From contig CALCJK010000033.1 in NCBI GenBank assembly GCA_937967455.1, forward strand, positions 1-45,045: DNA of 45,045 nucleotides. Reading direction: 5' to 3'. The notes under the pieces were generated by a model. The model did no database searches. It was not told the DNA's origin and saw nothing but the letters and a program-made list of their open reading frames with translations. Each line of letters opens with the position of its first letter. The first letter of the stretch is position 1. The DNA is from an uncultured bacterium (GTDB lineage: Bacteria > Bacteroidota > Ignavibacteria > UBA10030 > BY39). A program made the translations under genes and the position numbers. Shown here piece by piece: positions 200 to 24,317 of this stretch.

Positions 200-1360
200 A
201 TGTCGAAAATAAACAAAAAATACAGAATTTTAATTATTTCCTGCACAGGTGGAGCTGGACATATTCGTGCTGCTGAGGCACTTCATAAAACTGCTCAAGC
301 TCTAAAACTTCCAATACACACAGAACACTACAACATTCTCGATTTTACACCAAGATTTTTTAGCAACCTATATGCACAGACTTATATAAACCTGGTAAAA
401 TTCACTCCAAATTTCTGGAGCTATTTTTACAACAAACTGGAGTTAAAAAACTATTCTAAAAATCATCTGATAAAAATATTTGATAAAATCACTTACAAAA
501 AATATATCCATGCTCTTTTTGAGTATAAGCCTGATGCGATAATTTGCACACACTTCTTACCATACATTTCTATATCTGATGAGTTAAGAAAAATGAAATT
601 CAATATACCAATTTTTGCAGCCACAACTGATTTTGATATTCATAATATGTGGATCGATCCAATTGTAAACAAATATTTTGTTTTCCATAAAGAATCTATG
701 AATAGATTGATATTTAAAGGAGTACTCAAAAATAAAATTGTAATTACTGGCATACCAGTAATGCCAGAATTTAAAGATAAGTTAACAAAAAGTTTTGCAA
801 GAAAATTATTAAATCTTGAAGTGGATTCTTTTACAATATTAATTCTTTCCGGTGGATTTGGTGTAGGTAAAATAATGAGTGCTGTTAAATATTTAAACAA
901 TCACTTAAAGAAATTCACAAATAAAAAATTTAATTTACTAATTGTATGTGGTAAAAATCAGAAGCTTCTTCAGAAAATGTCTGATATTCATTATCCATCT
1001 AATATAAAACCTTGTATTTACGGATTTGTAGATAACATACACGATTTAATGGATGCAAGTGATATATTAATTTCAAAATCTGGTGGGTTAACATCTTCTG
1101 AAGCAATGGCAAAGAATTTACCAATGTTAATTTTCGATCCAATACCTGGTCAGGAAGTGCAAAATGCAAATTTAATTACTGAAGTGGGAGCTGGATGGAA
1201 AGCAACAAATTTAAAAGATTTATGTTATAGATTGAATCAGATAATTGAAAATCCAGATTTATTAAAGAAAGCCGTAAAGGCAAGTAAGCAATTAGCAAAG
1301 CCCGAAGCAGCTAAGAAAATTTTGAAAGAAGTTTTATCTTATTTAAATAAAAAGGGTTGA
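200..1360 (+). CDS. MGDG-synthase/GT28-type glycosyltransferase, probable diacylglycerol glucosyl- or galactosyltransferase
   Basis: A 386-residue GT-B glycosyltransferase resembling the MGDG synthase/UgtP family, which transfers a sugar from a UDP-sugar to diacylglycerol at the inner face of the membrane. The N-terminal half carries the family's glycine-rich acceptor-side motif GGAGHIRAAEA (residues 17-27). The C-terminal half has a second glycine-rich turn (GGFGVG, about 217) and the nucleotide-sugar-binding motif SGGLTSSEA (294-302), followed by PIPGQE. Length fits the family. There is no signal peptide, as expected for a peripheral cytoplasmic enzyme. It is one of only two protein genes on the plus strand and converges on the OmpA gene; its stop codon lies inside the hairpin at 1353-1380. 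The sugar and lipid acceptor cannot be read from sequence; MurG-like activity is unlikely because the N-terminal domain is of the MGDG type. Confidence 0.8.
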   Translation: MSKINKKYRILIISCTGGAGHIRAAEALHKTAQALKLPIHTEHYNILDFTPRFFSNLYAQTYINLVKFTPNFWSYFYNKLELKNYSKNHLIKIFDKITYKKYIHALFEYKPDAIICTHFLPYISISDELRKMKFNIPIFAATTDFDIHNMWIDPIVNKYFVFHKESMNRLIFKGVLKNKIVITGIPVMPEFKDKLTKSFARKLLNLEVDSFTILILSGGFGVGKIMSAVKYLNNHLKKFTNKKFNLLIVCGKNQKLLQKMSDIHYPSNIKPCIYGFVDNIHDLMDASDILISKSGGLTSSEAMAKNLPMLIFDPIPGQEVQNANLITEVGAGWKATNLKDLCYRLNQIIENPDLLKKAVKASKQLAKPEAAKKILKEVLSYLNKKG

Positions 1361-1380
1361 TTCAGGTTAGAATCAACCCT
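1353..1380 (-). terminator. Rho-independent terminator of the Tol-Pal-like operon
   Basis: A perfect 11-bp inverted repeat (AGGGTTGATTC / GAATCAACCCT) with a six-base loop. Read on the minus strand it is followed by TTTTTATTT, a typical U-tract, 20 bases after the stop of the OmpA gene. On the plus strand no T-run follows, so it mainly serves the minus-strand operon, although it overlaps the last codons of the convergent glycosyltransferase. Confidence 0.85.
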
Positions 1381-1399
1381 CGACTGATTCAATTTAGTT

Positions 1400-3280
1400 T
1401 TATGGAATAATATCGATTACAACTGTTCTATTATAAAATCTTTCTTCTGGTAAGCGGTTTTCGAATGGTGCTCTACGTGGATCTTCACCAAAACCATAAG
1501 TATCAAACTTAACCCGTTTCTTACCAGCTCTATTTAATTCTCTTTGAATAACATTCATAGTTTCTTGAGCTCTGTTATTGGATAAAGTCAGGTTATGGCT
1601 TTCTTCACCTACAATATCTGTATGTCCATGAATTACCACACTTGCACCCTCTGGAATTGTTGGAACTACAACTTCGCTTAAAAATTTTTCGTAGGTTGCA
1701 ACTGTTTTAGATTGATCGAATTCAAAAAGTATACTATAACGTAGACCTGGTTGTTCTTCAGGTCCTTCGGCTTTGGCAAGTCGCAGCTTCTGTTCTTTTG
1801 TAATTGTTGAGCCGTCTTTTGTTTTTCCAATCATAGTCACCTGGAAATCACCCATTTCTGTATTACCAAGAATCTGATTTCCACTTATTCTTTCCTGTTT
1901 GTTTGTGAAAGGACCGTATGTTTTTGTATTTCCTTTTGCATCAGTTATTTGAATATTCCAGGAAGATAAAATATTTTTTGAATCATCAACTCTGAAAATC
2001 ACATCTGCATCGATAGGATCTTCCTGTATAGCGATAATTTTTACTGGCATAAGTAGCTCAAGGTTTCCACTTTTGATATCTACGCGATTATCTTCTTCCA
2101 TTACCAAACTTAATTCGCGTGTTCCGCCAGGCTGGTGAGAAGGTATTTCTGGTTTTTCAACTCCAAATGTAAGTATTCTACCGGAATTAATTCCAAACAC
2201 ATTTACCAAATAATTTTTGATAGAAACAGCCATTTCTTTTCCAACATCTTTACCCTGTTTTGATGCACCAATGAGACTAATCGTTGCTTCAGGAATTTTG
2301 CGCATTCTATCACCAATAACATTTAGAATGTTATAATAAACTTCCATTTGCCTTGCTGAACGACCTGCAAGTTGTTGCAGTTTAGGTTCAAACAAATTTT
2401 CTTCTTTAAATTTTTCTGCTTGCTCTGGAGTTAACTGAATATAACGAGATGGTATACTGGTTGAATTTTGTTCGAAAAATATATAATTTCTAAGCGGAAA
2501 AGTTTCAGATACTCTTCTTGTACTAGGGATTATTTGAGGTGATTGAATCGAGAATCCTATCTCCTGTTTTATTGTTTCTTTTTGTATCGTTGTACTGCCA
2601 AACTTTAACTGTATACCAAATCTCAAAGTTGTAAGGCTCCATTTTTCAATATCTCTCACACCTTGTCCAAAATGTAATCCGAGTGAAGGAGTTAAAACAA
2701 ATTGTAATTCCTTTTCCCGTGAAGTTAATGGCAAATCATATCCAAGACCAATTTGACCGCCAAAATTAGTTGAACGAACATTACTGAAATCTCCTGATAC
2801 TTTCTCCGTTGGTGTTTCGTAATCAAAAGATTTGCTAATATTAAAGTTTAATTTTGGACCTGCGAATAAAAACAAGCCTTCACCTGCTGGATTAAATCTC
2901 AGGTTTGGTTCAATTGAAATATAATTTATAGTTGGTGAGATTTTGTATTTTCCTGAAACATCAACATCTGAAAATTTTCCGCTTCTTCCATCAAAACCCA
3001 GATTCAAAAAACCACCCCACATAATTGTTGGTCTGTATTCAATTAAAGCTGCACCAAAAATACCAAAGCCAGATCCTTTGGTGAATGCCTCAGGTGAAGA
3101 ATACGAGTCGTTAAGCTTTTTTAGATCCAATCCATAAATATTATAATTTGCTCCAAGTCCTGCACCAAACCACCAATGTGGTCTCGCATACTCATCCTGT
3201 GCGTAAAGATTTATTCTTAGAAATGATAATAAAATTAAAATAAATATTGGTGTAGCAATGAATCTGATTTTTAGCTTCAT
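1400..3280 (-). CDS. Outer-membrane protein: beta-barrel plus two OmpA-like domains
   Basis: A 626-residue exported protein. Residues 1-27 are a signal peptide. Residues about 30-235 look like a small outer-membrane beta-barrel with alternating Gly/aromatic strands and a PAGEGLFLFAGP segment. About 265-405 form a divergent OmpA-like domain (FFEQNSTSIP start, YYNILNVIGDRM helix) that keeps the fold pattern but lacks a clean LSxxRA motif. About 405-510 look Ig-like. Residues 517-626 are a canonical OmpA C-terminal domain with HGHTD and LSNNRAQ; D555 and R570 are the expected diaminopimelate/peptidoglycan-binding pair. It is the last gene of the operon, 34 bases after the TonB-like gene, and occupies the place Pal has in Tol-Pal operons. 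It differs from Pal in having its own barrel and no lipobox. Anchoring the outer membrane to peptidoglycan is an inference from family and position. Confidence 0.82.
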   Translation of the reverse strand: MKLKIRFIATPIFILILLSFLRINLYAQDEYARPHWWFGAGLGANYNIYGLDLKKLNDSYSSPEAFTKGSGFGIFGAALIEYRPTIMWGGFLNLGFDGRSGKFSDVDVSGKYKISPTINYISIEPNLRFNPAGEGLFLFAGPKLNFNISKSFDYETPTEKVSGDFSNVRSTNFGGQIGLGYDLPLTSREKELQFVLTPSLGLHFGQGVRDIEKWSLTTLRFGIQLKFGSTTIQKETIKQEIGFSIQSPQIIPSTRRVSETFPLRNYIFFEQNSTSIPSRYIQLTPEQAEKFKEENLFEPKLQQLAGRSARQMEVYYNILNVIGDRMRKIPEATISLIGASKQGKDVGKEMAVSIKNYLVNVFGINSGRILTFGVEKPEIPSHQPGGTRELSLVMEEDNRVDIKSGNLELLMPVKIIAIQEDPIDADVIFRVDDSKNILSSWNIQITDAKGNTKTYGPFTNKQERISGNQILGNTEMGDFQVTMIGKTKDGSTITKEQKLRLAKAEGPEEQPGLRYSILFEFDQSKTVATYEKFLSEVVVPTIPEGASVVIHGHTDIVGEESHNLTLSNNRAQETMNVIQRELNRAGKKRVKFDTYGFGEDPRRAPFENRLPEERFYNRTVVIDIIP

Positions 3281-3314
3281 AGATTATCTCCTTTTTTAAG
3301 TTATCTTTTATAAG

Positions 3315-4034
3315 TTATTCAAGTTTAAAATTAAAAGTTACTTTACCTATTTGAGGAACTTGTTCATATTGTGCAGGTAAAGGGTCGAAGCGCCAGGTTC
3401 TAAGTGCAGAAATTGCTTCGCGTTCAAGAATTTCATCACTTCTACGAACAGGAACAATTCCGGTTACACTTCCATCAGGCATAACTGTAAATTGTAAGAC
3501 AACTGGCATTTCTTTATCAGTGCCTTCAGGATAAACTGGCATTCTACCACTCAACAACTTTCTAAACCCGACACCAGACCATTCGATTGAATATCCAGTT
3601 GTTTTACCTGCTCCTGCAGCTGCAGCTCGATTTACTCGTGGCACTTTTGAATGCTCCGGCTTCACAATTTCAGAACTCTTCCTCTCGATCCTATCAGCAT
3701 TCTTTTTATTCTTCAATGCAATTGCTTCATTAGACTCACTTTTTGTTACAGGCAAATCTACCTTTGCTTTTTCTGCTTTAGCGCCTGTTTCGACAACCTT
3801 TTCTGTTTTTGCTTGGGGCATTTCTGTTTGTTCCTGAACTGTACTTTGATTTGGGGCACCACTGCTACTTCCCCATTCAAGTTCTATCATTTCAAGAGGT
3901 TTGGGCGACTTTAAATTAATTAATGCTAGAATCAGAAAAAGAATAAGATGAAAAATTATCGTTCCAATAGTTGAAATTAAACGGATTTGCTTTTCATCAA
4001 AAATAGTTATTTCAGATCTTCTATCCATATTCAC
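3315..4034 (-). CDS. TonB/TolA-like energy transducer
   Basis: A 239-residue protein with a single N-terminal membrane anchor (about residues 20-41), a charged Lys/Glu-rich periplasmic spacer (about 60-135) and a C-terminal TonB domain (about 155-239). The TonB domain is recognised by MPVYPEG, VVLQFTVMPDGSV and EREAISALRTWRFDP. In this family the C-terminal domain contacts outer-membrane partners while the membrane helix interacts with ExbB/ExbD. The spacer is not the usual proline-rich type, which is closer to TolA in character. Its start overlaps the ExbD stop by four bases (ATGA), so the two are translationally coupled. Sitting between ExbD and an OmpA protein it could act as TolA or as a dedicated TonB for the operon's own barrel; the sequence cannot separate these. 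Confidence 0.85.
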   Translation of the reverse strand: MNMDRRSEITIFDEKQIRLISTIGTIIFHLILFLILALINLKSPKPLEMIELEWGSSSGAPNQSTVQEQTEMPQAKTEKVVETGAKAEKAKVDLPVTKSESNEAIALKNKKNADRIERKSSEIVKPEHSKVPRVNRAAAAGAGKTTGYSIEWSGVGFRKLLSGRMPVYPEGTDKEMPVVLQFTVMPDGSVTGIVPVRRSDEILEREAISALRTWRFDPLPAQYEQVPQIGKVTFNFKLE

Positions 4035-4432
4035 TTTGCTTGCTCAGTAGCAATAAACAATTTTGTTGCACCTACTCCTTTAGCAATGTCGAGTATCTCA
4101 ATTACTTCTTCAAGTATCAAACTCTTATCTGCCTGAATTACAATTTGATGCTCAGGTGTAAATATTTTTTTTAAACTTTCAGCAAGCTGATCTTTCTGAA
4201 TAAGTTTACCTTCGACAAATAGTTTTTTATCCTTAGAATAAGCAACGGATATAGTTTTCTTTTGAGGAGGTTGAGCTGCTGTAGCTTTGGGTAGGGTTAT
4301 ATCCATGCCACGCATTACAGTAAATGCGGAAGTCAATAGAAAAAATATTAATAATAATAAAACAATATCCGTAAGCGAAGAAAAATTAAATGCACTTAAA
4401 TACTTTTTATGAGCTTGAAAATGAAAGTTCAT
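4031..4432 (-). CDS. exbD: ExbD/TolR family proton-channel subunit
   Basis: A 133-residue ExbD/TolR protein. It has a short cytoplasmic N-terminus, one transmembrane helix (about residues 20-40) and a periplasmic domain (about 60-133). The family's proton-translocating aspartate is at D22 at the start of the helix (SLTDIVLLLLIFFLL). With ExbB/TolQ it forms the inner-membrane motor that uses the proton motive force to drive a TonB or TolA protein. Length is normal. It overlaps the ExbB stop by four bases upstream and the TonB-like start by four bases downstream. Confidence 0.93.
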   Translation of the reverse strand: MNFHFQAHKKYLSAFNFSSLTDIVLLLLIFFLLTSAFTVMRGMDITLPKATAAQPPQKKTISVAYSKDKKLFVEGKLIQKDQLAESLKKIFTPEHQIVIQADKSLILEEVIEILDIAKGVGATKLFIATEQAK

Positions 4433-5094
4433 TTCACACCTTCAAGATTTTTAATTTTGGATTTGGAATTGTTTGATGGATTCAATTCTTCTTCAATAAT
4501 ATCTAAGATTTCTCTTCCGATCCTTTCCATTTGAATTGCAACTTCCTGTGTCCTTGCAATAAGCCAATTATAAGCGGCATACGCAGCAATACCGACAAAT
4601 AGTCCAAAAGCTGTTGTAATCAAAGCTTCCCAGATACCATCTGCTAATTCTACTGGTGAAGCTTGACCTCCTGTAGCTGCAACTGCTTGAAATGCAGCAA
4701 TCATACCAAGAACAGTTCCTAAAAAACCAAGCATAGGTGCAATACCAGCAATAGAAGCCAGTATACCCAGATGTTTTTCGAGTTGAGCTACTTCTTCTCT
4801 GCCCTGATCTTCAATTGCTTCACGAACTCTTCCTGGGTGATGATGTACTTTCTCGAGAGCAGCCAGAACAATTCTCCCTGATGGAGAACGATCCTGAATT
4901 GCTAATTCTTTTGCATGGTCTAAATCATTTTTACCCAACATCATACGTAAGTTCATTTCGAATCTACCCGTGCTGGGTTTTGATTTCTTTAAAATTAAAT
5001 ACCTTTCAATAAAAATATAAACTGCTACTAATGATGTAAACAAGATTGCGTACATCATTATACCGCCTTTAACAAACATTGTAATTAAATCCAT
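4429..5094 (-). CDS. exbB: MotA/TolQ/ExbB family proton-channel protein
   Basis: A 221-residue inner-membrane protein of the MotA/TolQ/ExbB family. There is a first helix at about residues 10-28, a long cytoplasmic segment, and two helices in the conserved region around LGFLGTVLGMIAAFQA and ADGIWEALITTAFGLFVGI, which is the family signature. It partners ExbD to form the proton channel powering the TonB-like protein encoded two genes downstream. It starts 19 bases after the barrel gene. Family membership is certain; TolQ versus ExbB subtype is not decided by sequence alone. Confidence 0.93.
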   Translation of the reverse strand: MDLITMFVKGGIMMYAILFTSLVAVYIFIERYLILKKSKPSTGRFEMNLRMMLGKNDLDHAKELAIQDRSPSGRIVLAALEKVHHHPGRVREAIEDQGREEVAQLEKHLGILASIAGIAPMLGFLGTVLGMIAAFQAVAATGGQASPVELADGIWEALITTAFGLFVGIAAYAAYNWLIARTQEVAIQMERIGREILDIIEEELNPSNNSKSKIKNLEGVK

Positions 5095-5113
5095 ATCTAT
5101 TTACCTTAAAAAG

Positions 5114-6721
5114 TTAAAAATTATACTGAATTTTTGCTAAAAATGTTACACCAGGAGCAGGATAACCATAAAAATAATCGTATCTTGTATCCAGCAGATT
5201 ATTTAATTCAAAGCTAATTAAAGTCTTCTTTATAATATTTGAATTTGCACCAATTCCCAAAAGAAAATAATCTGGTAAACTTTGAAATTGCTCTAACAGC
5301 CTCTTACTATAATAATCGGCTGTAACAAAAACTTTTAATGGAAAATCCAGAATAAATTCAAATTTATTTTGCAATTGAAACTCTGGTTTCATATAAAGCT
5401 GTTTTTTCAAACTTTTCATTTCCGAATTATTGTAAATCCAGTTGGCATAAAACCTGGTCTGTTTACTTATATCAAAAATACTGTTAAGTTCAATCTTAAA
5501 CTCATCTACATCTATATAATTTAAATATATGATCTGGTTCTGTACAAAAGGATATGAAGCATCATCAAGTTTTGCATATGATAATTTTGTATTTAGTGAT
5601 AAAAATTTATAAGAATAATCTAAACCGATGCCAACATTTATAGGCTTAAAAGAATATCTTAAAAGCAATTCTCTATTCAGGAAAGGATTTTCAAGCATAT
5701 TGAATATATATGAATTATTCAGTACATCAGGTTCAAACCAGATTGAAATTTTAAAATTATAATCAAAGTCTGCTTTCATTATGGCTAAAGGATAAAAAAA
5801 CCTCTGATATCCTCCATCTGAATTGGTGCCTTTAACATACTTAAATCCTATTGATGCGTAAACATTTTCATCCAAATAAGATTGTGAGAGAAACGAAAAT
5901 TGTAATAAAGTGGGGGATTCTGCTGGCACTGAGTAATTTATCAATGATGTTTCATATGATAATTTTGATAAGAAACTAATCTTAGAGATATTAAAAAAGG
6001 TAGAAAATTTAAATTCGGGAGAAAATACGGAAGAACTCAGCAAATTGTTATCTTCTATCTTAAAAGAATTAAGACCAAGCAAAAATTTAAAAGATATGGA
6101 TTTAAATTCAGAAGAAGCTAAATTAGTTTTCAAACTGAAAAACTGACGGGAACGTCGAACAGATGAATCTTTGATACCAAAAATACCAAATTTATCTGAT
6201 GTAAAATCAACAATATTTACAATCCGAAAGCTCTTTAAGTATTCGTTATCAGTATAAATCATTGTACCAAAATCAGCGCCAATTAAGAAGCGATTCCCAT
6301 CAGAATTTTTAATATGGCCTGATGTCGAATTATAGCTAGTTCTAACTGATCCTTCTAATTGAGTGTCTGAATAGCGAATAAGCCCTAAAAGTTGAACACT
6401 AGAAAAATTTCCTAAACCTGCTTCAATATAACCGTTTAATTTTTCAGTGAAATCACCTGTAACATACTGCTTTGTTCCGTAGGTTAATAAAAGTTGTTTA
6501 CTTCCAATAATTGATGTATCAGGTTTTGGAGCAGTTATATAATCTATAACATTGTACTCACCTTTTTTAGCAAATGGTAAAGTGATAGCTTTTTTCCCAA
6601 CAATTGTTATTTCAGGAATATCCAATTTTGGGAGTTCCTTTTGTTGTTCTTCTTGTTGTTGTGCAATCAGAAAAAAAGGAAACAATAAAATGAGTTTGGT
6701 AATTATATGAATTTTTTTCAT
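5114..6721 (-). CDS. Plugless TonB-receptor-like outer-membrane barrel
   Basis: A 535-residue exported protein: signal peptide 1-20 (cut after LIA), a Gln/Glu/Lys-rich linker, then LDIPEITIVGKK (33-44), which resembles the TonB-box/plug start of TonB-dependent receptors. The roughly 120-residue plug domain that should follow is not recognisable; instead alternating beta-strand sequence begins within about 40 residues and continues to the end. The C-terminus (LNNLLDTRYDYFYGY, ending in a terminal Phe after YN) is typical of TonB-dependent receptor barrels. The start codon overlaps the TPR gene stop by four bases. Because it lies between a TPR protein and ExbB-ExbD-TonB it is probably a structural or energised partner of that machine rather than a general uptake receptor; that is inference. 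Confidence 0.7.
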   Translation of the reverse strand: MKKIHIITKLILLFPFFLIAQQQEEQQKELPKLDIPEITIVGKKAITLPFAKKGEYNVIDYITAPKPDTSIIGSKQLLLTYGTKQYVTGDFTEKLNGYIEAGLGNFSSVQLLGLIRYSDTQLEGSVRTSYNSTSGHIKNSDGNRFLIGADFGTMIYTDNEYLKSFRIVNIVDFTSDKFGIFGIKDSSVRRSRQFFSLKTNLASSEFKSISFKFLLGLNSFKIEDNNLLSSSVFSPEFKFSTFFNISKISFLSKLSYETSLINYSVPAESPTLLQFSFLSQSYLDENVYASIGFKYVKGTNSDGGYQRFFYPLAIMKADFDYNFKISIWFEPDVLNNSYIFNMLENPFLNRELLLRYSFKPINVGIGLDYSYKFLSLNTKLSYAKLDDASYPFVQNQIIYLNYIDVDEFKIELNSIFDISKQTRFYANWIYNNSEMKSLKKQLYMKPEFQLQNKFEFILDFPLKVFVTADYYSKRLLEQFQSLPDYFLLGIGANSNIIKKTLISFELNNLLDTRYDYFYGYPAPGVTFLAKIQYNF

Positions 6722-9700
6722 TTCAATCTCCTTAATCTATCTTCAGCATCTTTTTTTACTACAGGATCAATTGGATTTTGAATTATCTGCTGATAAACTC
6801 TCCTGGCTTGATTTCGATCTTTCAGTCTCTCATAGCACTCGCCACTTCCTAATAAGGCTCTTTCTACAAGAAGTGGATAATTTGCAAATGCTTCTATAAC
6901 TTGGTTAAAAGCTTCAAGGGCTGATTTTGGATCTTTAAGTAACAGATAATTTTCACCCATTAACAAAAGTGCTTCAGCTGCAATATCATCACTTAAATTA
7001 TTAATAATCACAGTAAGTGTATCGTTAGATATATGATATAGCTTACGATTCTGTAACATTCGAGCAATTTGAAGTCGGCTGCGGTAAGCAAAAACTTCAT
7101 TTGAAGGAGCCAGTGTAATTACCTTATCAAATTGCTTTTTAGCATTTTCGAGGTCTTTCTGATTTAACAAAGCCACACCAAGATTATATCTGGCTTCCCA
7201 GACAAGTGATGAATTCGCATAATTTACATCAAAAAGTTTTAAATAATCAATAGCTTCTTTATATTTTTTCTGTTTTTGTAAAAGATGCGCAATCGACATT
7301 GCTGCCTGAGGTGCATAATCACTGGCTGGATATTTATTTAAAACTAAATTAAAATATTCAACCGCTTTTTGGGGATTATTCTCATATTCAAAACATCTTC
7401 CAAGTTGATATAATGATTTTGCCTGAATCAGTTCACTTGTTTGTAATCCGATAATTTTTAGATATTCGTTTGCTGCTTGTCCAAAATTCCCCTGCTCAAA
7501 TAATATATCAGCTTTTTTGACTAATAAATCCTCGTTTGCGGTATCAAAAGATTGCTTGTTTATCAACTCTTCAATTACTGTAATAGCTTCCGAAGATCTG
7601 CCTTGCGCTTGATAAGCAAATTGCAAACCGTTGATTGCATCACTTCTCAATAAACTCGTCGGGAACTGTTCGATTAAATTTTTATAATAAACTATAGCAC
7701 TATCGAATTCGCTTAGATTATAAAAAGCATCACCCTTATTTAAAAGTACTCTTGGCATTAATTGGCTTTCTGGATATTCAGATATGAAGGCATTGAATTC
7801 ATCAATAGCTTTTTTATACTGTTCATTTGTAAAATATGCCCAAGCAATGTTAAACCGAACAACTTCAGAGTATATAGAACCCGGGAATTTATTAAGGAAG
7901 TTTCTCAGATGTTCGATACCACGATTTATTTCGCCACGTTGAATATAAGTTAATGCTAATTGAAAAGCAGCATATTCAGCAAATTTCTGATTTTTTTTAT
8001 CTTCCGATAAACTTGCGTAAATCTTGGTAGCATTTTCAAAATCTCTTAAATAAAAATAACAATCCGCTTTACGAAGCGATGCTTCTAATTTCTCTGCAGC
8101 ATTTGGACTTTCAAGGATAAAATTATCAAAAGCAGTTATAGCCTGACGAAACTTTTTTTGTTCAAATAGACTCCAAGCTAAACCATACAATGCTGAGATA
8201 CGTTTTGGATTATCGTGCTTTAAATGTTTAATTGCATTGAGATATGCACTTTCCGACTCTCCATATTTAGCATCCTGATACAAAGCTTCAGCTAACCAGA
8301 AATAGCCTTCAGCATATTTACTATGATTTTTAAACTTCTTCAGATATTCCGAAAATTTTTCAGAACTACTTCTAAATCTACCCAGTTGATAAAGTGCAAC
8401 ACCTTCTTGAAAAATGGCTATAGCTGTTAGAGTATCGGAGCGTGAAAATTTTTGAACCTGAGAAAAAGCAAATTGAGCATTCGACAAATCACCTACAATT
8501 AAACTTAATTCACCCAGCATTCTATAAGAATCTGCGCGAATCTCACTATCTGGAAAAAGTCTGGCTGCAATCTGGAAACTACGTCTTGCTTCAGGATACT
8601 GTCCCGCTCTAAATCTAATCATACCAATTTGATAATAAGCTTTATCTGAATAATGCCCATATGGAAATTTTTCAATCAATTCTTCGAAAGTTGTTACAGC
8701 AGCTGCAGAACTATCCATCAAACTTAAAATCAAACCAATCTGAAAAAGTGAACTTTCGGTTAATGAATCATTGCTTTCCAGTACCTGTCGGAAATATTTC
8801 ACTGAGTTATTATAATCATTAAGTTTTAGATAAGACCAGGCTAATCCATATTTTGCTTTTCTGGTTAACTTTCCTGCAGGAAAATTATTTAAAAATAGTT
8901 TATAATCCTTTGATGCGCTTTCATAATCTGAAAGAGCATATTCAGCTTCAGCTTTTGAAAAAAGCCATATGCTTTTATGTGTAGATTTAGATGGTTGCAC
9001 GGAATTCAAATGATTCAAGGCAGAACCATATTTTCCAATTTGCATTAAATTTATTGCAAGTTTTAATTTAGCATCGACAAATAAACTGCTCTTTTCAAAA
9101 TCAACAATGAATTGTTCAAGTTTTGTTATTGCCTGTTTAATATCTCCTTTTTTCTCTAGTATCTCTACCCACAAAAATAGTACATCATCCTTTCCGACAG
9201 GTTCAAAGATGAAATCATAAGAAGTTGAATCGAAGTTTTGATTTGCCAAAGTGATATACTCTTCTGCTTGTGTAATATAATTAGATCTAAAATAAGATGC
9301 TGCAAGCCAGTAATATGCATTAAATTTGAGCACATTATCTTCAGTTTGCTGAAGTAGTTTCTGTAAAGATTCTATAGCTGGGGCATATCTTTCTGTATAA
9401 AACGCGCTAATTGCGTTGAAATAGACCAGACGTATTGCATAAAATTCAGGAAAGCTCAATTTTAGTAATTCTTTGCTTGCAAAATAGGCATCTTCATATT
9501 TTTTTTGAGCAACAAATGACAATACAAGCAAATAATGACCCTCAAATTTATTCTCAGATTCTCCGCTATTATGCAAAAAATCTTCCAATAACCACTGAGC
9601 CTTTTGATACATCCCATTATTAATTAGTTCTCTACTCTCCTGTAAAGGATTTAAATTTTTCTTTTTTTCCTCAAGTAATGGATGCTGAGAGAAAACTTGT

Positions 9701-9747
9701 GAATATAAGACAATAAATAAAAACAAATTTGATATAATCTTATTCAA
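6718..9747 (-). CDS. Exported giant tetratricopeptide-repeat protein
   Basis: A 1009-residue protein made almost entirely of TPR units after a signal peptide (about residues 1-20). Repeats follow the W/Y-x-L-G-x-A pattern, for example YHWLGxA-like units such as KAYYQIGMIRFRAGQYPEA and ARYNLGVALLNQKDLENA; about twenty or more helical pairs fit. TPR arrays act as protein-binding scaffolds, and CpoB/YbgF, a small TPR protein, is the standard last gene of Tol-Pal operons, so this looks like a greatly enlarged periplasmic counterpart placed first. The start is TTG: the nearby upstream ATG (complement of 9758-9760) hits a stop after three codons, and only the TTG gives a signal peptide. A GGTG sequence precedes it. 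A promoter candidate lies at 9788-9816. Confidence 0.82.
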   Translation of the reverse strand: MNKIISNLFLFIVLYSQVFSQHPLLEEKKKNLNPLQESRELINNGMYQKAQWLLEDFLHNSGESENKFEGHYLLVLSFVAQKKYEDAYFASKELLKLSFPEFYAIRLVYFNAISAFYTERYAPAIESLQKLLQQTEDNVLKFNAYYWLAASYFRSNYITQAEEYITLANQNFDSTSYDFIFEPVGKDDVLFLWVEILEKKGDIKQAITKLEQFIVDFEKSSLFVDAKLKLAINLMQIGKYGSALNHLNSVQPSKSTHKSIWLFSKAEAEYALSDYESASKDYKLFLNNFPAGKLTRKAKYGLAWSYLKLNDYNNSVKYFRQVLESNDSLTESSLFQIGLILSLMDSSAAAVTTFEELIEKFPYGHYSDKAYYQIGMIRFRAGQYPEARRSFQIAARLFPDSEIRADSYRMLGELSLIVGDLSNAQFAFSQVQKFSRSDTLTAIAIFQEGVALYQLGRFRSSSEKFSEYLKKFKNHSKYAEGYFWLAEALYQDAKYGESESAYLNAIKHLKHDNPKRISALYGLAWSLFEQKKFRQAITAFDNFILESPNAAEKLEASLRKADCYFYLRDFENATKIYASLSEDKKNQKFAEYAAFQLALTYIQRGEINRGIEHLRNFLNKFPGSIYSEVVRFNIAWAYFTNEQYKKAIDEFNAFISEYPESQLMPRVLLNKGDAFYNLSEFDSAIVYYKNLIEQFPTSLLRSDAINGLQFAYQAQGRSSEAITVIEELINKQSFDTANEDLLVKKADILFEQGNFGQAANEYLKIIGLQTSELIQAKSLYQLGRCFEYENNPQKAVEYFNLVLNKYPASDYAPQAAMSIAHLLQKQKKYKEAIDYLKLFDVNYANSSLVWEARYNLGVALLNQKDLENAKKQFDKVITLAPSNEVFAYRSRLQIARMLQNRKLYHISNDTLTVIINNLSDDIAAEALLLMGENYLLLKDPKSALEAFNQVIEAFANYPLLVERALLGSGECYERLKDRNQARRVYQQIIQNPIDPVVKKDAEDRLRRLK

Positions 9748-9787
9748 TCTATCGCACCATTTATTTATGATTTTTGTAACTTAATGT

Positions 9788-9816
9788 AATATAATATATT
9801 ACAAGCAGAATTTCAA
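9788..9816 (-). promoter_or_regulatory. Candidate promoter of the Tol-Pal-like operon
   Basis: On the minus strand TTGAAA (9811-9816) and TATATT (9788-9793) are separated by exactly 17 bases, about 40 bases before the TTG start of the TPR gene. The surrounding 100 bases between nadA and the TPR gene contain nothing else recognisable. AT-richness makes chance matches possible. Confidence 0.5.
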
Positions 9817-9850: not shown

Positions 9851-10804
9851 TTAATTACTTAATTCCAGCATTTTCTGGATAGGAATGAGAGCTTTTAATC
9901 TTATATCTTCAGGAATTAAGATTTCTGGGGATTGATTTTTCATGCAGAGATAAAGTTTTTCAAGTGTATTTAATTTCATATATGGACATTCGTTACAGGA
10001 GCAGGCTTCATCATTTTTGGGTGCAGGTATGAATATTTTATCAGGGCAAGCTTTTTGCATTTGATGAATAATTCCGACTTCTGTTGCAACAATAAATTCT
10101 TTTTCTGGACTGTCTTTTACAAAATTTAAAAGTCCACTGGTTGATGCAATATAATCAGCTTCATTTAATAATGGTTCTTCGCATTCAGGATGGGCAATTA
10201 ATTTTGCATTTGGGTAATTAAGCTTTAATTCAATAATTTTCCTTTGATTAAATGTTTCGTGTACTATACAACTACCCTGCCAGAGTAACATATCTCTACC
10301 AGTTTTTTTAATTAAGTACTTTCCAAGATTTTTATCTGGTGCAAACAGAATTGGTTTATCCTCAGGAATTTTTCTGATTATTTTTTCGGCGCTGCTTGAG
10401 GTACAAATTATATCGCTCAATGCTTTAACTTCTGCTGAAGAATTTATATAAGTGATAGCTATGTGATTGGGATGAGCTTCACGAAATTCCTTAAATGCAT
10501 CTGCTGGACAGCCTTCAGCTAAAGAACAACCTGCTTCAAGATCTGGCAAAAGTACTTGTTTATCAGGGCTCAATATCTTGGCTGTTTCAGCCATAAAATG
10601 TACACCTGCGAAAACAATAACATCCGCATCTGTGGATGCTGCTTTGCGGGATAATTCCAAACTATCACCAACAAAATCGGCAATATCCTGAATCTCAGAA
10701 TATTGATAATAATGAGCCAGAATTACAGCATTAAGTTCCTTTTTCAACTTCAAGATTTCTATTTCTAAATCTACAGGTATTTTTTCTTCAACTGGTATAA
10801 TCAT
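9851..10804 (-). CDS. nadA: Quinolinate synthase
   Basis: A 317-residue NadA, the [4Fe-4S] enzyme that condenses iminoaspartate with dihydroxyacetone phosphate to quinolinate in de novo NAD synthesis. Recognised by [20 protein letters not shown], the [12 protein letters not shown] motif, WQGSCIVHE and the C-terminal CSCNECPYM. Cluster ligands are expected at C93, C179 and a cysteine of the 268-273 group; the clustered cysteines match the type with a CxxC redox pair. Length is typical. nadB and nadC are not in the window. It follows the small membrane protein by 60 bases; a TTGTTA-N16-TATAAA arrangement just upstream (10811-10838) might be its own promoter, but would leave almost no leader. 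Confidence 0.96.
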
Positions 10805-10864
10805 AATGAATTTATATTAATTTCATTGATATTAACAACATGAGAGGGATATCAGTTCAAGTAG

Positions 10865-11032
10865 TTATTCATCTTCTTTTTTATTGGTAATATCTTCAAA
10901 ATCTGCCTCCTCGATATGATCAAATTTGTTTTTATTGATTGGAGATTGTTTTTTTGTTATAATTATTTTTAGATTTTTTAGCACTTTCCAGATAAGATAG
11001 ATGGCAATTAAAATTAATATAAAACGTAACAT
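10865..11032 (-). CDS. Small membrane protein, 55 residues
   Basis: A 55-codon gene starting with ATG two bases after the stop of the deoxynucleoside kinase gene. The first about 18 residues (MLRFILILIAIYLIWKVL) form one hydrophobic helix; a basic stretch (KNLKIIITKK) follows and the tail is acidic (EEADFEDITNKKEDE). This suggests a single-pass protein with a cytoplasmic charged tail by the positive-inside rule. No family is recognised with confidence. Evidence that it is real: the spacing to the upstream gene, the clean helix-then-charge design, and its filling most of an otherwise gene-free gap before nadA. Translation is probably coupled to the kinase, as no good Shine-Dalgarno sequence is seen. 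Confidence 0.7.
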   Translation of the reverse strand: MLRFILILIAIYLIWKVLKNLKIIITKKQSPINKNKFDHIEEADFEDITNKKEDE

Positions 11033-11034
11033 AA

Positions 11035-11712
11035 TTATTGATTCCCATTATCTGGGGGGTTGTAGTACTCGACAGGTGGTTTATCAGGACGCAAGATTTC
11101 TATTAATAGATTTTCGAAATCTTTTTCTTTATTTATAAAATCTATTTTCGTAGCATTAACAATCAATAAAGGAGCGTCTTTATATCGGAAAAAGAAATAA
11201 TTATATGCTTCGTTTAAGTCTCTGATGTATTCTTCTGAAATATTTTTTTCAATTGGTCTATTTCTTTTTTTTATATTAGACATTAATCTTTCTACACTCG
11301 ATTGTAAATAAACCACAAGATCAGGTGCAGGTATTTTATGTTCCATATTTCCAATTAATACTTCATAAAGTTTTAATTCATCATCTGCGAGATTAAGGTA
11401 AGCAAATATTTTATCCTTTTCGAAAATATAGTCAGTTATAAGGAAACGATGAAATAAATCTGCTTGTGTGAGTTCTTGTTGCTGCTTAAATCTGCTAAGC
11501 AGAAAAAATATCTGTGTTTGAAATGCGTAATGAATTGGGTCTTCATAAAATTTTTGAAGGAAAGGATTTTCCTCAAATTTTTCCAGTACAACTTTAGCAT
11601 CTAAAATTGTTCCTAATTTTTGAGCGAGACTTGTTTTACCAGCACCTATTACTCCTTCAATTGCTATATATCGAATGTTTGTATTTTCAATTAAAGATTT
11701 TAAGTCGCGCAA
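11035..11712 (-). CDS. Deoxynucleoside kinase
   Basis: A 225-residue kinase of the dCK/dGK/dAK family that phosphorylates deoxynucleosides in salvage. The P-loop is GVIGAGKTS (residues 19-27). A middle region ITDYIFEKDKIFAYLNL corresponds to the substrate-binding/lid helix, and VVYLQSSVERLMSNIKKRNR matches the family's LID motif with its arginines. The usual ERS/DRY arginine triplet is replaced by the DYIFEKDK form. The start is TTG, chosen because AGAGGTG lies five bases upstream and the protein then begins just before the P-loop strand. It follows folK by 10 bases. Base specificity (deoxyadenosine, deoxyguanosine or pyrimidine) cannot be told from sequence. Confidence 0.88.
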   Translation of the reverse strand: MRDLKSLIENTNIRYIAIEGVIGAGKTSLAQKLGTILDAKVVLEKFEENPFLQKFYEDPIHYAFQTQIFFLLSRFKQQQELTQADLFHRFLITDYIFEKDKIFAYLNLADDELKLYEVLIGNMEHKIPAPDLVVYLQSSVERLMSNIKKRNRPIEKNISEEYIRDLNEAYNYFFFRYKDAPLLIVNATKIDFINKEKDFENLLIEILRPDKPPVEYYNPPDNGNQ

Positions 11713-11722
11713 TTTTTCACCT

Positions 11723-12232
11723 CTACTTTTTTATATTATCGGTTTTAAGTGTGTAAACTGTTCTCATAACGAGACTTTTATCTCTACAATGTCGAAGCAG
11801 GGAAATCATTGTTTTACCAAGTATAGGATGCACAGCCAGAGGCGCAATTTCACTGATTGGTTCAAGCACAAACCTTCTTCTCTCAAGCTCCGGATGTGGG
11901 ACAGCAAGTGTATTTGTTTCGTATGACCAACCATGATATAGCAAAATGTCTATATCAATAGTTCTGGCTTGCATATGTGTATATTTTTTTCTACCTAATT
12001 TTGTTTCTATTTGTTTAAGTTTATTCAATAATTCAAGTGGATAGAGATCAGTTTCGATTTCAACAACTGAGTTATAGAATCGATCCTGATTTTGAACTCC
12101 CCAGGGTTCAGTCTCATATACTGAGGAAACATTCAAAATTTTAACGAACTTTTCCAATTCACTTATAGCTTTTTTTAAGTTGTTTAGCCTATCCCCAACA
12201 TTTGATCCTAAACCCAGATATACACGGAACAT
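11723..12232 (-). CDS. folK: 6-hydroxymethyl-7,8-dihydropterin pyrophosphokinase
   Basis: A 169-residue HPPK, which transfers pyrophosphate from ATP to hydroxymethyldihydropterin in folate synthesis. It starts with YLGLGSNVGDR, has SSVYETEPWG and the family signature ARTIDIDILLY, then PHPELERRRFVLEPISEIAP. Length is normal. It starts two bases after folB, the preceding step of the same pathway, so the two are clearly co-transcribed. Confidence 0.97.
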   Translation of the reverse strand: MFRVYLGLGSNVGDRLNNLKKAISELEKFVKILNVSSVYETEPWGVQNQDRFYNSVVEIETDLYPLELLNKLKQIETKLGRKKYTHMQARTIDIDILLYHGWSYETNTLAVPHPELERRRFVLEPISEIAPLAVHPILGKTMISLLRHCRDKSLVMRTVYTLKTDNIKK

Positions 12233-12234
12233 AT

Positions 12235-12606
12235 TTAAGATCTTCTATTACGTGATACTTCAACTTCTATATAATCCACAACACCTTTTACAGGGGGATG
12301 AGGCTTACGAAGTTTAACTAAAATAAATTTCACTTCTGAAAAGACATTTAGTATTTCATTAGCAATATGATCTGCTAATTTTTCCAGTAAAAAATATTTT
12401 TTTTCACTAACAAGGTTTTTAAGAAGAGAATATACCTTCTCATAATCTATTGTATCTACCAATCTGTCGGTCGTAATTGCTTTTTTGAAGTCGGTATGAA
12501 TTTCCAGATCCACTTCAAATTTTCCACCTAATTTTTGCTCATCTACATCCGCACCATGATAAGCGTAAAATACAGCATTTTTTATTCTAATAATATCCGT
12601 ATCCAC
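12235..12606 (-). CDS. folB: Dihydroneopterin aldolase
   Basis: A 123-residue FolB, which cleaves 7,8-dihydroneopterin to hydroxymethyldihydropterin and glycolaldehyde. Family features visible are IIRIKNAVFYAYHGADVDEQ with the substrate-binding stretch YAYHG, VDTIDYEKVYSLL, and LEKLADHIANEIL, with the typical ending LRKPHPPVKGVVDYIEVEV. The start codon is GTG; no ATG lies in frame upstream near it and no clear Shine-Dalgarno sequence precedes it. It follows glnS by 48 bases and is followed two bases later by folK. Confidence 0.96.
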   Translation of the reverse strand: MDTDIIRIKNAVFYAYHGADVDEQKLGGKFEVDLEIHTDFKKAITTDRLVDTIDYEKVYSLLKNLVSEKKYFLLEKLADHIANEILNVFSEVKFILVKLRKPHPPVKGVVDYIEVEVSRNRRS

Positions 12607-17434: not shown

Positions 17435-18577
17435 TTACCTTTCGGTCGATAATCTAAATCTTCTTATTATGTTGTTACCACTATCTGATATGTATAGAGT
17501 TCTTGTTAAATGGGCAACACCTTTCGGACTCTTCATTGGTGCACTTCCATAGGAGATTAACTTTGAACTTCCAAAAGATTCTGGTTTAAGGAGTCCATTA
17601 CGGTTAAAAATGACTACACTATCTAAAGCACTATCGACTATAAAGATATCCAATCTAGAACGATCGATTGCAACAGCTGCTGGTTCTACAAATCTATTCG
17701 GTCTTAAAAATTCGTTTTGTACAGTAAATTTTGGTAGCCAACCTTCGAAATCATAGCTTTTTTTGTAAATCATCCAAATAGCCCCATAAATCATCGTCCC
17801 ACCTACAGAACTTTGAATGATTATAAAATCGTTACTATTTGGGAATGTTGCAATACCTGTTGGTCGGAGAATATCAGTAACACCAGAACCTGAACGTGTA
17901 GCTAAATCACCAAGAGGTGTCACATATCGATCTCGGACACGGAGATTGAAATCTATAATAGTACCGGAAGTATCTTTTATGGTATCAACTATGGTTTGAG
18001 TCCAAAACCAGAGCACACGGCTATCCGGATCAACAAAGCTGGTATTATCAGGTCCATCTCTTACGACTAAATATTGGTTATTGATAAGCGGTCCAATGCC
18101 TTTGAATCTGCGGTTAGGTTTCCTATCTTCTCTATAAATTGTATCTAACCTCACTCTTGATATATCATGATTTGGATAGTCGTTACTAATGTTATACATT
18201 TTGAGTCTGAAAATTGCCCCGATAGTATCAGCAGTTTCTTCTCTATAGATTAAACCTGACACTAAAAGATCAAGCCGTAGGTCTTGAGCAATTGCCATTG
18301 GATGTAAAATCTCTCGAGTACCCATTATGATACCAGCCTCATTAATCTGAACAATTCTATTATTATCAGTATCAGCGATATAGAGCATCTGATCACCACC
18401 GGCATAGATTGCAGTTGGATTATTGAATCCTGAAAATGGTGGATTGATTTCAATATAAGAAGTATCGCCGACGGTTTGAATTGTAGAGATAGGCAGGTCA
18501 GAAATATTATATGGTTTCTGGCAGCCAAAATAGTTGATTATAAAAGCTGTTAAGAGTAATATTTTTAAAGTTTTCAT
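17435..18577 (-). CDS. NHL-type beta-propeller lipoprotein
   Basis: About 380 residues from an ATG at 18577. The frame is open 23 codons further upstream, but the nearer ATG gives a perfect lipoprotein signal (MKTLKILLLTAFIINYFGC, cysteine at residue 19) and sits four bases after the preceding gene, so it is preferred. The body has NHL-like blades: PTAIYAGGDQMLYIADTDNNRIVQI, TGIATFPNSNDFIIIQ, AAVAIDRSRLDIFIVDSALDSVVIFN and KGVAHLTRTLYISDSGNNIIRRF. Such propellers bind ligands or act as scaffolds at the membrane surface. It is the last gene of the locus that starts at 28708 and is followed by a strong terminator. Its specific partner is unknown. Confidence 0.82.
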   Translation of the reverse strand: MKTLKILLLTAFIINYFGCQKPYNISDLPISTIQTVGDTSYIEINPPFSGFNNPTAIYAGGDQMLYIADTDNNRIVQINEAGIIMGTREILHPMAIAQDLRLDLLVSGLIYREETADTIGAIFRLKMYNISNDYPNHDISRVRLDTIYREDRKPNRRFKGIGPLINNQYLVVRDGPDNTSFVDPDSRVLWFWTQTIVDTIKDTSGTIIDFNLRVRDRYVTPLGDLATRSGSGVTDILRPTGIATFPNSNDFIIIQSSVGGTMIYGAIWMIYKKSYDFEGWLPKFTVQNEFLRPNRFVEPAAVAIDRSRLDIFIVDSALDSVVIFNRNGLLKPESFGSSKLISYGSAPMKSPKGVAHLTRTLYISDSGNNIIRRFRLSTER

Positions 18578-18581
18578 ATTT

Positions 18582-19610
18582 TTAAAATGTAAATAATAAT
18601 GATATTCTATGAACTCCGCCCAAGCGGTTAAAATTTGTAAAAGCATAATCCAGATTTATATTAGTAACACTCAATGGCACCTTAACACCTGCTCCAATTG
18701 AAATATCTTCTTCACTTGTTCCATCCTTTCCAAATAATTTTTCACCCACGGTTCTCTTTATTCCCAATCTAACGAAAAACGATTCTTTAAAAGCATATTC
18801 ACCACCTATACGAATATTTTCAGCGTTATCATTTGGATGATTGAGTTGTAAGGATGTTGTAACTCGATGTAGCTCAGTTTGATAAGGTTCGAATGCTAAA
18901 CCAATCTTAAACAAAGTTGGTGGTGTAAAGGATTGGAAGTTGTTAATTTTAGTGCCGTCGTATAATTCAACTGTTCCGGTTGGAGAAACATTATTGCCAA
19001 AATTAGTGACCACAACACCAAATCTGAATGAGCCCAAACCAGTCCAGTAGTAAGTTCCAAGGTCAACCAGAATGCTACGCATTTTTACAATATCCAGAGT
19101 TTCTTCAATATATTTCACAGTTGCACCAAAACTGAATTGAGCAGTCATCTTTCGTGAATAAGTCAAACCTATAGCAAGGTCACCATATTTAAATGTCTGC
19201 CCTGTTCCAAAAGGATTGGTTTCATTAGTAACTGGCATATTCGGTGTACTTAAAGATATTATACTAATTCCGACGATATCAGAGCTGGAAAATTTATAAG
19301 CAGCACCCAGAAATTCATGATCTAAATCAGCTACATATTTGGTATGGGATAAAATAACCTGGCTTTGTTCCATATTAATTAAAGCTGCGGGATTCCAGAA
19401 TAAAGCAGATGCGTCATTTGCAACTGCTATATATGAATCACCAAATCCAGTAGCTCTTGCTCCAACACCAATTTTTAAAAACTGATAAGCTGAAATCCCA
19501 ACTCTCTGTCCACCAAGATTAGGGATTAATTGAGCTACAACATTTGAATTAAAGATAAAGAACATCAGCAAACCGACTAACAAGCACGAATATTTCAATT
19601 TATTTTTCAT
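18582..19610 (-). CDS. PorV/PorQ-family outer-membrane protein
   Basis: A 342-residue exported protein, signal peptide about 1-26, with the family's characteristic start QFLKIGVGARATGFGDSYIA followed by DASALFWNPAALI, and beta-barrel sequence of the FadL/OmpP1 type to the end (LLFTF). In T9SS organisms PorV shuttles substrates to the outer-membrane attachment complex and PorQ is a related barrel; which this corresponds to is not clear, as Ignavibacteria carry many paralogues. It starts 19 bases after the TonB-dependent receptor gene, linking it to that receptor and to the secreted proteins upstream. Confidence 0.85.
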   Translation of the reverse strand: MKNKLKYSCLLVGLLMFFIFNSNVVAQLIPNLGGQRVGISAYQFLKIGVGARATGFGDSYIAVANDASALFWNPAALINMEQSQVILSHTKYVADLDHEFLGAAYKFSSSDIVGISIISLSTPNMPVTNETNPFGTGQTFKYGDLAIGLTYSRKMTAQFSFGATVKYIEETLDIVKMRSILVDLGTYYWTGLGSFRFGVVVTNFGNNVSPTGTVELYDGTKINNFQSFTPPTLFKIGLAFEPYQTELHRVTTSLQLNHPNDNAENIRIGGEYAFKESFFVRLGIKRTVGEKLFGKDGTSEEDISIGAGVKVPLSVTNINLDYAFTNFNRLGGVHRISLLFTF

Positions 19611-19629
19611 TTATCTACTCACTTTGATT

Positions 19630-22494: not shown

Positions 22495-22515
22495 GTTATA
22501 CTCCGAAATTCATTT

Positions 22516-24300
22516 TTAACCACCGAATTCATCAATAAATACACGTTTTAAGAAAGCAGGTACACCTTTTCCATCTTCACCTGGACGATCAGGCCAAACT
22601 TTAGTTGTACCGTTCATCAGATTAAGTGGCATACTTAAAAAAACAAAAGTTTTAGCACCATCAATAACTCCTATATTAACAGGACCTGTCCAGTAAGCAT
22701 TAGGAGGTACACGACCTGGAACAGGTGGAATCTTTAATATATATTTTGCATCTGAACGTTTGTAAATATCTCTTACAAACAAAGATAATGCACCACCTGG
22801 TGTTGGAGCAGGATTAAATCTCATTGTAGGAAAAGGATTCGGAAGCAGCACACTCGGATATGTGGAATCTGGATAAACAGGCCAGTCGTTTGGAATGCGT
22901 GTATCTATTAATGTTGTTCCAACCAGATCTACAGGTGCAAAATCTACAAGTGAACCACGAGGATCACCCAGGAAATATCCAAAGCGGGTAGTATAAACAA
23001 CTTTTCCACCAGCTCCATTATATAAGTATAGAGGAAATTGCGCCACAGCATACATATGTGTCCAGGTATCAGGTATATAATCTGTAAACCAGAAAACATA
23101 CTCAAAAAGAAGTAAGGTGCGGGTCATAGCTGGATTTAATATTGGTGGAACAAGATCACCAACCTTTGTAGCAGTTGCACCACGACGAATATCCAACCAA
23201 TCAAAATTACCAAAATTACGAGGATAAGTTACCCCGGGGAAAGTATCAATCGCACTAAACCATTTTCTATAATCTGTAATCACTGTTACTAAATCGCCCT
23301 GACCGTAATTTGAAACAACAAGCAATTTACTTGTAGGTTTCTTTACATACCATAATTTATTCCCACTTGGCAGTGAAACAACAGGACTTAAATCACCAGC
23401 CATATCTTTTGCTTGGAGATAAATACGATTTGTATCATCCAATCTTAGACCTGGAACTTCACCTATCTTATACATAGTAGGGAAAATACCTGTGTAAACA
23501 TCAGCATAAACTTCACCCGTTGCACCATCAGTACGAGATCTTGGCGCTTCGAGTGTAACCATTGTATAATAAGCTGGAAATTCAAACCATTGAGTCGAAT
23601 CATTAGGATTATTAAGATTAATCCTGTAACTTTTCAAGGTTTGGTCTCCATCCAGATCGGTTCCAATCCAACTGAATGTTGCAACAGTAAAAGTTGTATC
23701 TGGTTGTTGGATTGTTTTTAAAGGATCAAGCGGATCTTTGGCAAATTCAACAGCAGGTGGTGTATTTTTAATAGGAAAAATTTGTTTTGCCCCGACAGGA
23801 TCAATTGCTCCATTAAGAGTCTTTAGTTCAACATCACCACTATCTAAGACTGCATTATTATTCTTATCCCAAAAAGGTGTTGGTTTTAATTTTACAATTG
23901 CACCAACATCGATATGTTCTTTAAAAGTATTATCCACTGCACGCACAACAACAGTAAATCTTTCTCGAGCTGTGAATAGTGGGAATGCCATAGCAGTATC
24001 ATTTTTAACAACCCAACTGTAAGAAAGTGTATCTGGTATTGTATTTTGTGCAACACTATCCGTATTAAAATATCCAAACAAATATCCAATAATTAAACCA
24101 TCGGGATCTTCACCCCACCAACGAATTATTTGGCGGCTAATTGTAGGACTTAATTCTTGTGTTGTGTCGGTTTGAACCCACAAAAATGTTTTAGGTGGCT
24201 GATTTGGTCTTGGTTTAGTAATAGTATCATCTTTACGACAACTGTTTATAAGAAACACACCAAAAATAAAGACGCAAAAATATTTGATGAATTTAAACAT
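22516..24300 (-). CDS. Surface lipoprotein with Ig-like repeats
   Basis: A 594-residue protein with a lipoprotein signal (LINSC, cysteine at residue 21). Two segments share a pattern: RWWGEDPDGLIIGYLFGY (about 60-77) and SWIGTDLDGDQTLKSYRI (about 210-227), each preceded by a PP-x-F/V element, consistent with two Ig/fibronectin-like domains that have Asp-rich loops. From about 325 on, LLVVSNYGQGDLVTVITDYRK and the following LLLFEYVFWFTD resemble a Rossmann-like or glutamine-amidotransferase-like fold without a clear catalytic motif. No family is recognised with certainty. It sits immediately before the TonB-dependent receptor gene, the place a SusD-like ligand-binding lipoprotein would have from the other side; a ligand-capturing role is conjecture. 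Confidence 0.72.
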   Translation of the reverse strand: MFKFIKYFCVFIFGVFLINSCRKDDTITKPRPNQPPKTFLWVQTDTTQELSPTISRQIIRWWGEDPDGLIIGYLFGYFNTDSVAQNTIPDTLSYSWVVKNDTAMAFPLFTARERFTVVVRAVDNTFKEHIDVGAIVKLKPTPFWDKNNNAVLDSGDVELKTLNGAIDPVGAKQIFPIKNTPPAVEFAKDPLDPLKTIQQPDTTFTVATFSWIGTDLDGDQTLKSYRINLNNPNDSTQWFEFPAYYTMVTLEAPRSRTDGATGEVYADVYTGIFPTMYKIGEVPGLRLDDTNRIYLQAKDMAGDLSPVVSLPSGNKLWYVKKPTSKLLVVSNYGQGDLVTVITDYRKWFSAIDTFPGVTYPRNFGNFDWLDIRRGATATKVGDLVPPILNPAMTRTLLLFEYVFWFTDYIPDTWTHMYAVAQFPLYLYNGAGGKVVYTTRFGYFLGDPRGSLVDFAPVDLVGTTLIDTRIPNDWPVYPDSTYPSVLLPNPFPTMRFNPAPTPGGALSLFVRDIYKRSDAKYILKIPPVPGRVPPNAYWTGPVNIGVIDGAKTFVFLSMPLNLMNGTTKVWPDRPGEDGKGVPAFLKRVFIDEFGG

Positions 24301-24317
24301 TCATATCTCCAATAAAA

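Follow-up and report, generated by a model that had tools for sequence, protein, structure and literature searches.

A conserved TolB-less operon of Tol/Ton type with a plugless barrel and a giant TPR protein, a candidate replacement for Tol-Pal in Bacteroidota

A standing question is how Bacteroidota, a major gut and environmental phylum, couple the outer membrane to the wall and constrict it when no Tol-Pal can be detected. A 2025 survey could not identify tol-pal loci in Bacteroidetes and proposed PorE as the tether between outer membrane and peptidoglycan, other such systems remaining to be revealed in these bacteria (PMC12204202). The window analyzed here, a 45,045-nucleotide stretch of DNA from an uncultured member of the class Ignavibacteria, raises this question through six consecutive minus-strand genes, that the initial annotation described as a self-contained Tol-Pal analogue without TolB. 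Does this operon do the work of Tol-Pal, and is it peculiar to its class? All six open reading frames (ORFs) were recovered at the annotated place, together with the following signals:

6718..9747, minus strand: TPR gene (1009 aa, TTG start; ORF call)
5114..6721, minus strand: barrel gene (535 aa; ORF call)
Barrel N-terminus, about residues 36-49: TonB-box-like motif PEITIVGKKAITLP
4429..5094, minus strand: gene for the ExbB/TolQ proton-channel subunit (221 aa; PF01618, 1.2e-32)
4031..4432, minus strand: ExbD/TolR gene (133 aa; PF02472, 6.9e-25)
3315..4034, minus strand: gene for the TonB/TolA-type force transducer (239 aa, GTG start; PF03544, 7.8e-11)
1400..3280, minus strand: gene for the OmpA-type protein (626 aa; PF13568, PF00691)
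1352..1381, minus strand: intrinsic terminator 3' of the operon (12-bp stem, 6-base loop, T tail)
9788..9816, minus strand: promoter-like element upstream of the TPR gene (TTGAAA-17-TATATT)

The tight packing reported before was confirmed, with three 4-bp overlaps and remaining gaps of 19 and 34 bp, as was the terminator after the last gene, whose 12-bp stem and T-tail lie at 1381..1352. The promoter-like element is present and matches the -35 and -10 consensus at 10 of 12 positions (9816..9788). It is nevertheless weak evidence, because such sites are no commoner in the region than in shuffled sequences (51 vs. 44.2 ± 6.4, no enrichment). Upstream of the operon, nadA and small folate/nucleotide-type genes (9851-12606) have equal sizes in relatives of the same family (L056-L058), which suggests conserved local synteny within the family. 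Elsewhere (17435-28708 and 33806-36034), the window encodes a 954-aa TonB-dependent receptor, whose TonB box reads QEVVVIGER, as well as large exported proteins carrying NYPNPFNP-type C-terminal sorting domains, probable cargo of the type IX secretion system (T9SS).

Three of the genes encode proteins with the Pfam domains MotA_ExbB, ExbD, and TonB_C, respectively. The ExbB protein scores 102.7 bits with the TolQ model vs. 64.5 bits with the ExbB model, both values lying below the cut-off. Among 41 orthologs, the pore threonine T127 of ExbB is conserved at 100% and T160/T161 at 87/92%, and the transmembrane Asp22 of ExbD is invariant. In models of the Tol motor, the motor positions are Asp23 (D23) of TolR and Thr145/Thr178 of TolQ (PMC8928145). 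We infer that D22 of ExbD and T127 and T160/161 of ExbB occupy the positions of D23 and of T145/T178. The transducer consists of an N-terminal transmembrane segment, a linker, and a TonB C-terminal domain, and exceeds the cut-off of TIGR01352. The C-domains of TolA and TonB are homologous, and sequence barely tells one from the other. The genome of the window encodes two MotA_ExbB proteins, the operon copy and one in an ExbB-ExbD-ExbD-TonB set on contig 16, which is a second Ton system serving ordinary transporters. In an ExbB tree, copies associated with the operon from Ignavibacteria and other families cluster separately from TolQ of family f33 (discussed below), with subclades following families; the single classical ExbB of the window genome forms a very long branch, the placement of which is unsure.

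We used the barrel as a query against 150 relatives, obtained matches in 78, and then read the flanking DNA. The initial annotation had proposed comparing gene order across relatives, and the order proved to be kept phylum-wide, so that its focus on Ignavibacteria was too narrow. In this class and in most other families of the phylum sampled, the module is organized as TPR (~1000 aa)-barrel (~550 aa)-[SPOR]-ExbB-ExbD-TonB, where SPOR denotes an additional gene described below. Downstream of the 78 barrels we found SPOR in 47 loci, ExbB in 41, and TonB in 49; all five parts occur together in 20. The order ExbB-ExbD-TonB-OmpA-TPR-barrel of family f2 (e.g., locus L060) corresponds to the two blocks of the window, swapped yet adjacent, and in some groups, such as family f37, SPOR and ExbBD lie away from TPR-barrel. 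No published description of this module was found in the open-access literature that was searched, which covered HU-SPOR proteins, Tol in Bacteroidota, and TonB-TPR operons.

The most conserved pair of the module is formed by the barrel and the TPR protein, whose genes adjoin in 70 of the 78 loci; in 35 of these, the two genes overlap by 4 bp, as they do in the window. The 535-aa barrel matched no Pfam family of any kind, plug domain included. An AlphaFold2 model built on 64 orthologs, with a mean pLDDT of 87 and values mostly >90 in the barrel blocks, predicts 22 strands. The first of these begins at residue 95, the stretch of residues 50-90 is disordered, and the model contains no plug domain. 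The closest folds are those of FhuA, BtuB, and other TonB-dependent transporters (TBDTs), with Z scores of up to 23 (22-23 for BtuB/FhuA), and the sequence likeness to solved transporters is confined to the C-terminal strands. A short disordered N-terminus is common to barrel orthologs throughout. Just past the signal peptide, it carries a motif that is a putative TonB box judging from its sequence and reads PEITIVG in the window; most relatives belonging to the class have PEF[VI]ITG instead. Recognizable as a pattern in only two thirds of the barrel loci, the motif was observed in 53 of 78 N-termini vs. 4.25 (maximum 12) in 1000 shuffles. The extra TonB-box barrel of the initial annotation is retained, with the refinement that this TBDT-type fold is plugless and has 22 strands. 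In three loci of a single genus (L043, L152, and L153), the barrel lacks the motif and SPOR is not followed by ExbB-ExbD-TonB, whereas both are retained in further genera of this family. This is possibly a joint loss and represents one evolutionary event only. The barrel-like matches in L048, L050, and L135, where no TPR gene adjoins, were taken for ordinary transporters.

The TPR protein is predicted to be exported, with a type I signal peptide (signal peptidase I type) and no lipobox. It matches many Pfam TPR families as well as the ybgF/BamD-type TPR model, and the ybgF-model matches are spread over its 1009-aa array. Its designation as an occupant of the place of CpoB is best read as an analogy. 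When named organisms were scanned with a narrow TPR alignment, 12 loci were retrieved, mostly from Ignavibacteria or Bacteroidetes MAGs; a distant match in an Armatimonadetes MAG (20% identity, E 2e-24) is weak.

In relatives, the additional gene found between those of the barrel and ExbB encodes an inner-membrane protein that has a single transmembrane helix and ends in a SPOR domain (PF05036), often preceded by an N-terminal HU-type domain. HU-CCDC81 domains (PF18174/PF18175) were identified in two loci outside the class (L124 and L125). The operon of the window has no SPOR gene. However, a 233-aa SPOR protein is encoded on contig 29 of this genome (19780-20481; 3781-4482 in locus L138). As this protein shares the N-terminal MPNLNL and the juxtamembrane INLWG (LWG) motifs with the operon-borne SPOR proteins, it is most likely, by sequence, an ortholog that moved out of the operon. 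The operon is thus not self-contained as initially described: relatives carry SPOR or HU-SPOR within it and the window genome has SPOR on another contig. The gene is likewise relocated in the same family on contig 4 of G003 (L140). In L152, the barrel gene is separated from the HU-SPOR gene by a 93-aa HU-like ORF of its own (6918-8231 and the small ORF preceding it), and other loci of the family, L046, L043, and L047, have gaps of similar size, about 300 bp, at this place. SPOR domains as a family are known to bind the denuded glycan of septal peptidoglycan, and their presence here points to division.

The OmpA-type protein is not core to the module. Its gene was found only in families f1, to which the window belongs and where it lies downstream, and f2, where it precedes the TPR gene. 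Pfam matches are OmpA (PF00691, 6e-10) and OMP_b-brl_2 (PF13568, 5e-9), and there is no lipobox in its 626 residues. Of the two OmpA domains initially reported, one is detected by HMM, at 520-616. The second, a degenerate OmpA-like domain at about 250-405, appears only in the predicted structure, where confidence is moderate (AlphaFold2, mean pLDDT 69); this model comprises an 8-strand barrel, the degenerate domain, an Ig-like domain, and the C-terminal OmpA domain. In the latter, which is of the peptidoglycan-binding type, Asp555 and Arg570 are invariant in an alignment of nine sequences. Given its restriction to two families, the protein is not a general replacement for Pal as had been supposed.

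Is Tol-Pal encoded elsewhere in the genome? We found no match to TolB_N in this assembly, which is 99% complete, and no OmpA domain beyond that of the operon, which is itself near the cut-off, so that divergent domains could escape. On these results, a canonical tolQRAB-pal is absent from the genome, and a PorE-type protein is not detectable in it. The idea of a Tol-like, TolB-less operon coupled to the proton motive force (PMF) is supported. The combination that would have spoken against it, a canonical tolQRAB-pal elsewhere and an unconserved gene order, was found in neither of its parts.

The same relation was observed on the scale of the phylum. Among 392 genomes, either of two profiles matches a barrel at E <1e-25 in about 290. 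The one large family without it is f33, in which none of 67 genomes has a full-length barrel and only weak transporter-like matches were detected. Weak barrel matches (E about 1e-5 to 1e-21) in f33, f46, f50, and f28 were not accepted as orthologs, because the ORFs concerned are larger and the matches fall mainly on C-terminal TBDT strands. A second sample of 335 genomes from this phylum contained full-length TolB in 64, all of family f33 (E ≤3e-148), and the matches outside this family are propeller fragments only (best 6e-35). TolB_N matches outside f33 were likewise not accepted as TolB: they are partial or weak, mostly in ORFs of other sizes, and a query with a real TolB returned propeller fragments. 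Three f33 loci (L181, L182, and L183) have the order tolQ-tolR-tolA-tolB-pal-pal-cpoB; the two consecutive pal-like genes precede cpoB in each, and L181 has a 559-aa ORF between tolA and tolB. As Chlorobi are documented carriers of tol-pal near this group (PMC12204202, PMC7391070), f33 probably corresponds to Chlorobiaceae. The module and TolQRAB-Pal-CpoB are thus mutually exclusive in our samples. The exchange is not one-for-one, since about 30 sampled genomes (f28, f46, f50, f17, and others) have neither full-length TolB nor the barrel. Furthermore, being limited to f33, it counts as one exchange on the tree and not many; as the split follows clades, phylogeny alone could explain the exclusion.

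The module is nearly universal, linked to SPOR/HU, equipped with a plugless barrel, free of substrate genes, and exchanged with Tol-Pal; together, these features make coupling of the outer membrane to peptidoglycan at division the likeliest role. We therefore propose, with a probability of about 0.58, that the operon encodes a PMF-driven trans-envelope machine of Tol/Ton type that replaces Tol-Pal in Bacteroidota. The ExbB/TolQ-ExbD/TolR motor would energize its own TonB/TolA-like transducer, which would span the periplasm and bind the TonB-box-like tail of the plugless 22-strand barrel, with the giant periplasmic TPR protein sitting on the barrel as a scaffold. The bitopic SPOR protein, encoded elsewhere in the window genome and in the operon of most relatives, would recruit the complex to the peptidoglycan of the septum, and the HU domain present at its N-terminus in many relatives could additionally serve to sense or tether the nucleoid. 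In the lineage of the window, the OmpA protein may give the outer membrane a further hold on peptidoglycan. As the cell constricts, each cycle would pull the outer membrane to the wall or anchor it there. Domain content, conservation across the phylum, motor residues, the predicted barrel fold, the motif, the SPOR/HU linkage, and the mutual exclusion come from the data, whereas we infer these physical contacts, the septal location, and the role of the parts in constriction. A wider proposal, in which the plugless TonB-box barrel and the TPR protein generally stand in for TolB-Pal across Bacteroidota in a TonB-driven machine and HU-SPOR connects the nucleoid with the inner membrane and the septal peptidoglycan, making one complex from chromosome to outer membrane at division, is tentative, and we would give it less than even odds. 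In Cytophaga hutchinsonii, deletion of the genes named tolA (chu_0135) and tolB caused no growth defect in the media tested, and deletion of a TPR-PD40-OmpA protein led to more vesicles with no division defect (PMC5891637). If chu_0135 belongs to the module, the tolA result could weigh against an essential role.

A plugless 22-strand barrel is a large hole unless gated, and TPR-plus-barrel pairs serve as exporters elsewhere, as in BcsC, PgaA, and AlgK-AlgE. The module might accordingly be a TonB-energized export or import channel, in which a widely conserved envelope component (a glycan, a lipoprotein, or a lipid) passes through the barrel as a gated pore and the TPR protein is its gate on the periplasmic side or an adaptor for cargo, with no mechanical part in division. 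TonB coupling suits gated transport. However, the barrel is of TBDT type, with 22 predicted strands vs. 16-18 in these exporters; no biosynthetic genes are conserved beside it, and the additional partner that is conserved carries SPOR/HU domains. We regard such a channel as unlikely, although it is the best of the alternatives.

A machine for outer-membrane biogenesis or for surface functions or motility, similar to T9SS, gliding, or Glt/Agl systems and driven by its own TolQR-type motor, is improbable. There is a partial match of the TPR protein to the T9SS PorW/SprE model NF052312, and the window carries probable T9SS cargo, but the score of 118.4 bits is under half of the cut-off of 250 and is obtained on repeats. 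Glt/Agl of Myxococcus unites TPR proteins, barrels, a TonB-like protein, and a TolQR motor; yet Glt machinery is reported to be absent from Bacteroidetes (PMC3169522). The operon has a single ExbD and no FHA domain, hence no FHA-TonB protein, and near-universal presence suggests a housekeeping function and not motility. Finally, an ordinary nutrient-uptake Ton system whose receptor lost its plug by decay, with conservation of the motor genes only, would account for the Ton-like set of ExbB-ExbD-TonB and a TBDT-like barrel but is very improbable and already largely contradicted by the data: the short disordered N-terminus recurs throughout the orthologs, TPR-barrel pairing exceeds motor linkage (70/78 vs. 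41/78), the genome has its second Ton set, and neither binding lipoprotein nor uptake genes adjoin.

Coupling of the outer membrane to peptidoglycan at division thus remains our preferred reading. The module is a concrete, nearly phylum-wide candidate for this role, with six named genes, and may be the missing system that draws the outer membrane inward at division. The absence of a plug suggests that a TonB-dependent barrel could be a mechanical handle and not a transporter.

Compared with known systems, the module has the motor, TonB C-domain, 22-strand barrel, and TonB-box-like N-terminal motif of Ton/TBDT systems (BtuB/FhuA fold), but differs by the lack of a plug, the fixed linkage to a giant TPR protein and SPOR, and the coexistence with a separate classical Ton set. 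It resembles Glt/Agl in the components listed above; the latter has AglRQS with two TolR-like subunits, the FHA-TonB protein GltG, further parts, and a function in motility (PMC3169522). Like the module, PorE combines TPR and OmpA domains and is proposed for the work of Tol-Pal in the same phylum. It is a single lipoprotein of TPR-propeller-carboxypeptidase-like-OmpA organization with no linked motor (PMC12204202), and an architecture of this kind (lipoprotein, TPR, propeller, and OmpA) is absent among the operon proteins. With Tol-Pal itself, the module shares a TolQ/TolR-type motor, a TolA/TonB-like transducer, and a TPR protein in one operon, an OmpA peptidoglycan-binding domain in f1 and f2, and, by way of SPOR, a probable connection with the peptidoglycan of the septum. 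Unlike Tol-Pal, it has neither TolB nor a Pal lipoprotein, its transducer ends in a TonB-type C-domain, its TPR protein is of 1009 aa vs. about 250 aa, and it adds a plugless barrel and a SPOR/HU protein.
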